From Thalassobacter stenotrophicus (GTDB lineage Bacteria > Pseudomonadota > Alphaproteobacteria > Rhodobacterales > Rhodobacteraceae): 64,000 nt of DNA. The notes under the pieces were generated by a model. It worked only from the letters and a program-made list of their open reading frames with translations. It did not search any database and was not told the origin of the DNA. The translations under genes and the position numbers were made by a program. The DNA lies in the NCBI RefSeq assembly GCF_001458315.1, contig NZ_CYRX01000033.1, positions 558,001-622,000 on the forward strand. Reading direction: 5' to 3'. Below, one piece after another: positions 46,025 through 48,080 of this stretch (positions are counted from its first letter, which is position 1; every line of letters starts with the position of its first letter).

Positions 46025-46564
46025 TCACGCCAAAGCTTTGCCCAAGCGGTGTAGACGTGCGCGCTTGAGCAGGGTGCGGCGGTTTAGGGCGGTTCCTTCA
46101 ATGCGCGATGCCTCTGCGTGGACGCGGGCTACGGCGCGCTCCACCCCATCCGGCTGAGCGAGCCACAGATCGTATAGGAATGCATCTGGCGTTTCGCGGG
46201 CAATACCCTCAGCAAACAGGTCCGCGCGGGGAAAGTCTTTGATATTCAGCGTAATAAGAGTGTCGGCATGTCCGTCGATGGCGGCGGCAAGCACGTGGAT
46301 GTCATTGGGGTCAGGCAGCCAAAGCCGTGCCTCGGTGCCTGTATGAACCCGGATGCTGGCCTTTGGAAAACGCGCCGCAAGAAGCGCGATTTCCGCACGG
46401 GCCTGCGCCTCACCCGTTGGGCCGATCTTGCGGGCCGCGCGCGCCCATTCCTCTAGGATACGCGCGGACCAAAGCGGCTCAAACTGGGTTTCCTCTGCCG
46501 CGGCGAGCAATATTTCGCGCAAGACCGTGGGGAAGAGTACGCAAGCGTCCAGCAGGATCTTCAT
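46025..46564 (-). CDS. PIN domain protein coupled to an RNA methyltransferase
   Basis: A 179-residue PIN-fold protein, potential Mg2+-dependent ribonuclease. Acidic residues fit the active site: Asp6 in ILLDACVLFP, Glu38 or Glu39, Asp85/Asp88 in LPDPNDIHVLAAA and Asp110 in ITLNIKDFP. Its ATG overlaps the stop of the methyltransferase gene (ATGA), and no antitoxin-like gene is next to it, so an RNA-processing role is more plausible than a VapC toxin. It resembles the family I recall as RSP_2648 in Rhodobacterales. Confidence 0.85.
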   Translation of the reverse strand: MKILLDACVLFPTVLREILLAAAEETQFEPLWSARILEEWARAARKIGPTGEAQARAEIALLAARFPKASIRVHTGTEARLWLPDPNDIHVLAAAIDGHADTLITLNIKDFPRADLFAEGIARETPDAFLYDLWLAQPDGVERAVARVHAEASRIEGTALNRRTLLKRARLHRLGKALA

Positions 46565-47754
46565 GGGCAATGGAACGCGAGCGCCTTGAGGTAGCCGGTT
46601 TCTGCTAATTGTGGATGCATCGGGTGATCGGGGCCCGCAAAGCCGGTGTAGATCAGTGCGCCGGGACGGCCCGCCCGCCCCATGCCGCGGACACATGCGG
46701 CCCGAAACTTCGACAACTCCGCCGCGTGCGAGCAGGAACACAGGATCAGATAACCACCCGGCGCGACGAGCGATGCGGCCAATTTCGCCACTCGCTCATA
46801 CGCACGCAGGCCTGTTGCAAGGGCCTGTTTTGACGGGGCAAAGGCGGGCGGGTCGGCGACAACAAGGTCGAATGTTTCGCCAGCAGCACTGAGCTCGGTC
46901 ATGACATCAAACGCATCACCGCGCCGCGTGCTAAAGGCATCCGCGCGGCCCATGGCGTCCGCGCCCTCTTCGGCGAGTGCAAGCGCGGGGGCAGACCCGT
47001 CCACCGCAAGCGCGGATTGAGCACCGCCTGCAAGGGCCGCCAAACCAAACCCGCCGACGTGGGAAAACACGTCCAGCACCCGGCTACCGGGCGCAAGGCG
47101 CGCGGCAAAGGCGTGGCTGGGGCGTTGGTCATAGAACAGACCCGTCTTTTGGCCACCAATCAGGTCGGCCATGTAGGTCGCGCCGTTCATTGGTACGGCA
47201 ACTTTGCTGGGGGGCGTGCCCAGCAACGGGCCGTTCACATCGTCCAATCCTTCAGTCACGCGCGCCCGGCCTTGGGCGTTTTTGAACACCGATGTGCAGC
47301 CCGTTACCTCTGCAAGGACATTGGCCAGAAGCGTGCAGTTCGCCTCGGCCCAAGCGGTATTGGGCTGAATGACCAGCGTGTCATCGAAGCGGTCGACAAT
47401 AACACCGGGCAGGCCGTCGGCCTCGGCGTGGATCAGGCGATAGTAAGGGGCGTCAAACAAGCGGCTGCGCAGCGCAAAGGCCTGCGCAATCTTGGCGTGT
47501 ACCCATGCGGCGTCAATCTGCGTCTCGGGGTTCAGGTCCAGAACCCGTGCAACAATACGTGTGCCGGGGTTTGCGGCGACCAGCGCGAGGGGATTGCGTT
47601 CGCTGTCTTCTAGCAGGGCTAGGGCGCCCGGCACCAAATTGCGGCTGCGGCGATCAAGGACGATGTCATCGCCGTAAACCCAAGGGAATCCGTGACGAAT
47701 ACGCTTGGCATCAGCTTTGGGTTTGAGGCGGAGTGTGGGGAGTTGTGTATCCAT
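46561..47754 (-). CDS. class I SAM-dependent RNA methyltransferase (RlmI-like)
   Basis: A 397-residue methyltransferase. An N-terminal PUA-like region (LRLKPKADAKRIRHGFPWVY) precedes an RFM-like domain and a Rossmann domain with VLDVFSHVGGFGLAAL (SAM site) and DLVVADPPAFAPSKQ (catalytic motif IV). The layout fits RlmI-type enzymes that make m5C in 23S rRNA, but the true position is not known. It resembles the family I recall as RSP_2647. It starts 38 bases after the small 47-residue gene's end. Confidence 0.88.
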   Translation of the reverse strand: MDTQLPTLRLKPKADAKRIRHGFPWVYGDDIVLDRRSRNLVPGALALLEDSERNPLALVAANPGTRIVARVLDLNPETQIDAAWVHAKIAQAFALRSRLFDAPYYRLIHAEADGLPGVIVDRFDDTLVIQPNTAWAEANCTLLANVLAEVTGCTSVFKNAQGRARVTEGLDDVNGPLLGTPPSKVAVPMNGATYMADLIGGQKTGLFYDQRPSHAFAARLAPGSRVLDVFSHVGGFGLAALAGGAQSALAVDGSAPALALAEEGADAMGRADAFSTRRGDAFDVMTELSAAGETFDLVVADPPAFAPSKQALATGLRAYERVAKLAASLVAPGGYLILCSCSHAAELSKFRAACVRGMGRAGRPGALIYTGFAGPDHPMHPQLAETGYLKALAFHCP

Positions 47755-47792: not shown

Positions 47793-47936
47793 TTAGTGCG
47801 CTGTTTGGCGACCGAATACGACGGTTCCGCTGCGTACAAAGGCGACAACTGCTTTCAGGATGGAACGCAGAGCCTCGGCACGCAGGCGGCGGGCTTCACG
47901 TTCGATTTCGATGTGGTTGATTTCAAAGCTGTTCAT
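47793..47936 (-). CDS. small basic protein, RSP_7527-like
   Basis: A 47-residue protein, MNSFEINHIEIEREARRL and onward, with a helical, basic middle (RRLRAEALRSILKAVVAFVR). GGAG stands eight bases before the ATG. It resembles small helical Rhodobacterales proteins related in style to DUF1127. Its 5' leader carries a CCUCCUCCC-loop hairpin (47951-47990). Function is unknown; the position suggests co-expression with the RNA element. Confidence 0.7.
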   Translation of the reverse strand: MNSFEINHIEIEREARRLRAEALRSILKAVVAFVRSGTVVFGRQTAH

Positions 47937-47950
47937 TTGATGTCTCCGAG

Positions 47951-47990
47951 CGGGCGCGGGGAGGGAGGAAGGGAGGAGGAGACGCGCCCG
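47951..47990 (-). ncRNA. CcsR/cuckoo-like hairpin with CCUCCUCCC loop
   Basis: On the minus strand, CGGGCGCG/CGCGCCCG form an 8-bp stem, and the 24-base loop contains CCTCCTCCC followed by CCTCCC repeats. A CCUCCUCCC loop in a GC-rich hairpin is the mark of Rhodobacter CcsR (cuckoo-type) stress RNAs, which are made together with a small protein gene. CCCCATTT (48003-48010) with CTCGCA 12 bases upstream resembles a heat-shock sigma (RpoH) promoter and would start the RNA about eight bases before the stem. Confidence 0.5.
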
Positions 47991-48002
47991 TTGATGCACC
48001 CA

Positions 48003-48028
48003 AAATGGGGCTAAACTCGGATTGCGAG
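48003..48028 (-). promoter_or_regulatory. candidate RpoH-type promoter
   Basis: Reading the minus strand, CTCGCA (48023-48028), a 12-base spacer and CCCCATTT (48003-48010) resemble the sigma-32 consensus CTTGAA and CCCCATNT. The start point would be near 47997, in front of the hairpin. Confidence 0.35.
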
Positions 48029-48043
48029 TAGATATGAAAATAG

Positions 48044-48080
48044 AAAAGCCGGGTTGCATTGGACGCAAACCGGCTTTTTT
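48044..48080 (-). terminator. intrinsic terminator after the aldolase gene (bidirectional form)
   Basis: AAAAGCCGG/CCGGCTTTT with inner TTGC/GCAA forms a strong stem around a seven-base loop. On the minus strand it follows the aldolase gene and is succeeded by TTTTCTATTTT; on the plus strand six T residues end it. Confidence 0.8.

Follow-up and report, generated by a model that had tools for sequence, protein, structure and literature searches.

The predicted mRNA of a small RSP_7527-family gene and an rlmI-like gene of Thalassobacter stenotrophicus has a GC-rich hairpin in its 5′ leader, the open loop of which carries an anti-Shine-Dalgarno (anti-SD) pyrimidine tract. With moderate confidence, we interpret this hairpin as a lineage-specific element that acts in cis on the stability or translation of the RSP_7527-rlmI mRNA. 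Sequence comparison establishes what the gene and its promoter are and that the hairpin exists. Control of decay and translation in cis is the most likely mode of action. The window referred to below is the whole stretch of 64,000 nucleotides that was analyzed.

The hairpin is present on the minus strand at positions 47951 to 47990 and reads, 5′ to 3′ from 47990 to 47951, CGGGCGCG-UCUCCUCCUCCCUUCCUCCCUCCC-CGCGCCCG. Its stem (47990-47983 with 47958-47951) consists of 8 bp, all of them GC, and closes an all-pyrimidine loop of 24 nt (47982-47959, UCUCCUCCUCCCUUCCUCCCUCCC), which is built from near-repeats of CCUCC and UCC and in which the motif CCUCCUCCC is embedded. By itself the hairpin had a predicted energy of -14.2 kcal/mol with a z score of -4.6, and 0 of 200 shuffled sequences was equally stable, which bears out the GC-rich leader hairpin proposed by an earlier sequence-only reading. 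When the whole leader was taken, the z score was only -2.0, because there is no gain from the long loop. Modelling of the transcript left the loop ~97% unpaired, with the stem paired up to 48°C. On both strands of the 64-kb window, no other hairpin combined CTCCTCC in its loop with a stem of 6 bp or more. The genome contains 11 CCTCCTCCC sites compared to 24 for the reversed pattern, and the motif as such is therefore not enriched. No comparable GC-rich hairpin was found at the other genomic CCTCCTCCC sites, the window and a locus on contig C25 apart.

The 47-codon gene behind the hairpin (47793 to 47936, minus strand, ATG at 47936) was assigned to the RSP_7527 family by a family search and by NCBIfam NF046098, which its product matched with 41.2 bits (curated cut-off, 26) over profile positions 3 to 47 of 48. 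Membership in a curated family and a Shine-Dalgarno sequence (SD; GGAG, 47944 to 47947, minus strand) located 7 nt before the ATG confirm that the small gene is real. By this family assignment, it does not belong to the DUF1127 (CcaF1) proteins, the partners of the CcsR RNAs. A Pfam search with the 47-aa protein gave no match, and no profile similarity was found to three DUF1127-type proteins of the same genome, a thin set for such a comparison. A 69-aa open frame elsewhere in this genome matched DUF1127 above the cut-off. RSP_0557 was rejected as the orthologue, as it is a 70-aa DUF1127 protein (PMC10673084) and thus another gene. Among 395 genomes, one per genus, the RSP_7527 family was found in 105 in one search and in 127 in another (91 above the cut-off), so that between roughly one-quarter and one-third of the Rhodobacteraceae genera have it.

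The gene for the rlmI-like SAM-dependent methyltransferase (46561 to 47754, minus strand) is located 38 nt downstream of the small gene. The same order is found in several other genera, too, and the nearest rlmI relatives are ~70% identical. Immediately before the rlmI-like ATG there is a strong hairpin without a T run (GCCCCGCC...GGCGGGGC, 47779-47754, z score of -3.5), which may couple rlmI translation to the small gene. At the gathering threshold, Rfam reported only tandem glycine riboswitches in the window (RF00504, 38700 to 38852, 67.9 and 36.8 bits).

The promoter was identified by comparison with the family. The box TGC-N7-GCA emerged from motif discovery in 103 upstream regions. Of the upstream regions of 154 family members, 124 contained it, compared to 14 to 42 for six other spacings. 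The family -10 element, gCCTAtcT, is most often located 46 nt after the GCA of this box. In the window, the box is represented by the dyad TGCGTCCAATGCA (48055 to 48067, minus strand), which has the T-N11-A format of LysR-type sites, and exactly 46 nt after its GCA lies the RpoH-type -10 element GCCCCATT (48004 to 48011, minus strand), with CCCCAT at 48010-48005. The automatic two-box fit did not pick this element, because CCCCAT differs from CCTAT, and GCCCCATT was assigned afterwards by its position. The dyad alone is weak evidence, since the terminator palindrome of the upstream aldolase gene includes the box as well: the box lies inside a terminator-like hairpin behind that gene (AAAAAGCCGG...CCGGCUUUU, 48045 to 48078, minus strand; -19.5 kcal/mol, z score of -5.1, 0 of 200 shuffles). 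This hairpin was not listed by a simple scan for terminators, which covered perfect stems with loops of 3 to 8 nt. It is the spacing from the box to the -10 element, rather than the dyad alone, that supports a promoter at this site. Of the RpoH-type promoter match in the sequence-only reading, the -10 element is supported by its location at the family position, and the RSP_7527 promoter of Rhodobacter sphaeroides is RpoHII dependent (PMC8625941); the best -35 sequence in the window (CTCGCAA), however, is weak.

The TGC-N7-GCA box was also present upstream of a ccaF1-like gene (L023) and of the DUF1127 gene (L032) of this genome, which suggests that these promoters and those of the RSP_7527 family may be under shared control. 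VtlR/LsrB is at most a tentative candidate for the cognate factor: the spacer in the motif reported for Brucella, CAATGCAGCCATGCA, is 6 nt long, and descriptions of LsrB restrict it to the Rhizobiales. Besides the box, a palindrome with the look of a LacI-type operator, GTTAGCGCTAAC, was found for 47 of 103 family genes in the 250 nt ahead of the gene, whereas two control palindromes gave counts of 0 and 3. At several loci, its position is between the small gene and a long open frame of the opposite strand, and in the window it occurs at 48099-48088 with 2 mismatches.

Based on the position of the -10 element, transcription is predicted to start between 47996 and 48000, near 47998, on the minus strand, resulting in a leader of ~62 nt. 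The hairpin would begin ~8 nt past this start, and it ends 3 nt before the SD. Its loop is able to form a UCUCC-GGAGA pairing, and the loop-SD duplex was calculated at -7.5 kcal/mol. A loop-SD pseudoknot is nevertheless not favored as the main fold, as the SD is predicted to be mostly paired with codons 3 to 5 and not with the loop, and the 3-nt gap between stem and SD is unfavorable.

The sequence-only reading had proposed that the hairpin is a CcsR/cuckoo-like RNA. There are common features with the ccaF1-CcsR1-4 operon (CIN1 locus; RF02791, RF02344), namely, CCUCCUCCC in a hairpin loop, a small-protein gene adjoining on the same transcript, and, as a match to the -10 element, a putative RpoH-type promoter (RpoHI/II type in R. 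sphaeroides). The architecture, however, is different. CcsR RNAs form three and four hairpins, each with a CCUCCUCCC loop (PMC3927594), in a short-loop array behind a DUF1127 gene, whereas the window has one hairpin instead of an array of three to five, located upstream of a gene of another family. The claimed loop motif is present, but as part of a 24-nt loop and not as the entire loop. Neither CcsR1 (RF02791) nor ar14 (RF02344) matched the window region at E values up to 10. The best Rfam match at this limit, Termite-leu with 22.5 bits against a gathering score of 51, was rejected as a chance hit. As a positive control, both models detected the true ccaF1-CcsR-type locus of this genome (C25:172600-173700, L023), which encodes a CcaF1-like protein of ~75 aa and has five CCUCC hairpins behind the gene, although with scores below gathering (ar14, 50.6 bits, E value of 5.5e-07; CcsR1, 28.3 bits, E value of 0.0015). 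The absence of a match in the window, the single long-loop hairpin, the different partner gene, and the presence of such a locus elsewhere in the genome make it highly improbable that the window hairpin is a genuine CcsR/cuckoo (ar14) RNA.

We compared the leaders of 154 family members, for which the closest ATG ahead of the conserved motif was simply taken as the start codon, so that single leader lengths are approximate. CTCCTCC inside a hairpin of the 110-nt leader was found in the window only and was absent from the 153 other members. The loop is thus not conserved at the genus level and above, which had been set beforehand as a test of the CcsR assignment, and the hairpin is lineage specific, with no conservation in relatives beyond this genus. 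Because it is absent in the 153 other leaders, there is neither covariation nor conservation to show selection. A serious alternative is a CU microsatellite peculiar to the lineage, which would have expanded by slippage between two GC-rich flanks and would lack a dedicated function. Such an origin would agree with the near-repeats CCUCC and UCC in the loop, with the occurrence in this genome alone, and with the length of the leader, as the distance from the box to the ATG is 131 nt in the window compared to a family median of 107 nt (a distance equaled or exceeded in 18 of 121 members). It is harder to reconcile with the 8-bp all-GC stem right at the borders of the tract, which arose in 0.03% of cases when the sequence on either side of an unchanged CU tract was shuffled, with the fact that the hairpin is the only one of its kind in the window, and with its position precisely between the predicted start and the SD. 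We regard slippage without function as possible, though on the whole improbable.

For the order of hairpin and gene, which the sequence-only reading had called unusual, the hairpin indeed lies upstream, but a better comparison than CcsR is the RSP_7527-UdsC system of R. sphaeroides. The RSP_7527 mRNA of this species has a size of ~300 nt, is induced at elevated temperature, and is subject to 5′-end-dependent decay by RNase E (PMC6238624). Its 3′ untranslated region (UTR) gives rise to the small RNA (sRNA) UdsC, which binds the rpoHII mRNA (PMC8625941, PMC9779115). UdsC has a length of 67 nt and is freed from the 3′ UTR by RNase E cleavage. The window resembles this system in the protein family (NF046098) and in a match to a stress-sigma promoter (RpoHII in R. 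sphaeroides), and in some relatives the mRNA has a CCUCCC element beyond its coding region. It differs in the location of the RNA element, which is the 3′ UTR there and the 5′ leader here, and in that the anti-SD loop of the window is much longer. On the 3′ side of the window gene, no UdsC-like element was detected, i.e., neither TCCTCCC nor UUCCUCCCU plus a terminator.

In other members of the family, 3′ elements do occur. TCCTCCC was present within 60 nt after the stop codon in 8 of 154 members, compared to 0 of 154 for the reversed motif; a single genome (G263) contributes three of the eight as tandem copies, and not all are therefore independent. Among the eight is the locus of the genome nearest to ours by rlmI score (G035, L036; 69% identity), which has CGGACGCGCCGCGTG-ACCTCCTCCC-CACGCGGCGCGTCCG just behind the small gene. 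Several of the 3′ TCCTCCC elements read GTTCCTCCCTAGACTTGGGCC plus a terminator, and the UdsC-like 3′-UTR elements at seven loci (L217, L223, L236, L254, L279, L194, and L227) contain (U)UCCUCCC, mostly with a terminator. The region G263:C2:105915-107309 harbors four tandem family genes (L223, L236, L252, and L254), at least three of them with a UdsC-like TTCCTCCC directly behind. Going by the description of UdsC only, the 3′ elements fit it in position and length. Two of them, L217 and L194, were tested and matched the MmgR/suhB family (RF00519) with 36 to 37 bits, just below the gathering score of 41, and such 3′ UTRs in some genera carry UUCCUCCCU; UdsC-like RNAs and MmgR may be related. 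The window leader itself gave no match to RF00519 at E values up to 10.

The parallel with UdsC raises the question of whether the leader could be the source of an anti-SD riboregulator that, once detached, works in trans in the manner of CcsR or UdsC, in reversed order, by pairing with the SDs of stress-regulon mRNAs; the CCUCCC module would then have moved from the 3′ to the 5′ UTR within the same gene family. The exposed CCUCCUCCC loop, the putative RpoH-type promoter, and the release of a 3′-UTR sRNA from the homologous R. sphaeroides transcript by RNase E cleavage would be consistent with this, as would the CCUCCC elements or hairpins on the same mRNA in some relatives, although these are located 3′. 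The hairpin, however, stands alone without a terminator behind it, the Rfam models CcsR1, ar14, and suhB miss it, it is not conserved in relatives, and an RNA of ~60 nt would have to be released by specific cleavage adjoining the SD. Both an RNA of this kind and the relocation of the module therefore appear unlikely to us.

The interpretation that we favor, a leader element acting in cis, starts from a single mRNA, in which the RSP_7527-family gene and then the rlmI-like gene would be transcribed from the stress-type promoter of the family, and to whose leader this lineage would have added a GC-rich hairpin with an open anti-SD pyrimidine loop. A stable stem ~8 nt from the 5′ end could hinder 5′-end-dependent decay of a short stress mRNA by RNase E, and the stem could also set translation at the adjoining SD. 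An RNA-binding protein, Hfq, or the SD of the mRNA itself might bind to the exposed CU loop. As a less likely extension, the leader would be detached by cleavage and would target purine-rich SDs in trans, in the way assumed for anti-SD sRNAs. The cis reading is supported by the family assignment, the rlmI synteny, the promoter spacing, the stability of the hairpin with its largely unpaired loop, and the loop-SD duplex, by the recurrence of CCUCCC motifs on RSP_7527-family mRNAs (8 of 154 in the 3′ position), and by the RNase E-dependent decay of the R. sphaeroides RSP_7527 mRNA from its 5′ end (PMC6238624). Against it speak the lack of the hairpin in all 153 other leaders, the predicted pairing of the SD with codons 3 to 5, the short distance of 3 nt from stem to SD, which disfavors a loop-SD pseudoknot, and the possibility that the tract is a CU repeat expanded by slippage.

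As judged from these comparisons, the locus represents a known theme in a locally altered form, in which the RSP_7527 family is known and the anti-SD element is found 5′ here and 3′ in some relatives. Transcripts that combine a small stress-induced protein with an anti-SD RNA occur repeatedly in the Rhodobacterales, both as ccaF1-CcsR and as RSP_7527-family genes with CCUCCC 3′ elements. The RSP_7527 3′-UTR RNAs of some genera are linked by model score to the MmgR family, a connection that is testable. In the window, the anti-SD element lies ahead of the gene and next to its own ribosome-binding site, and effects of the loop in cis and in trans would be separable in one simple construct.
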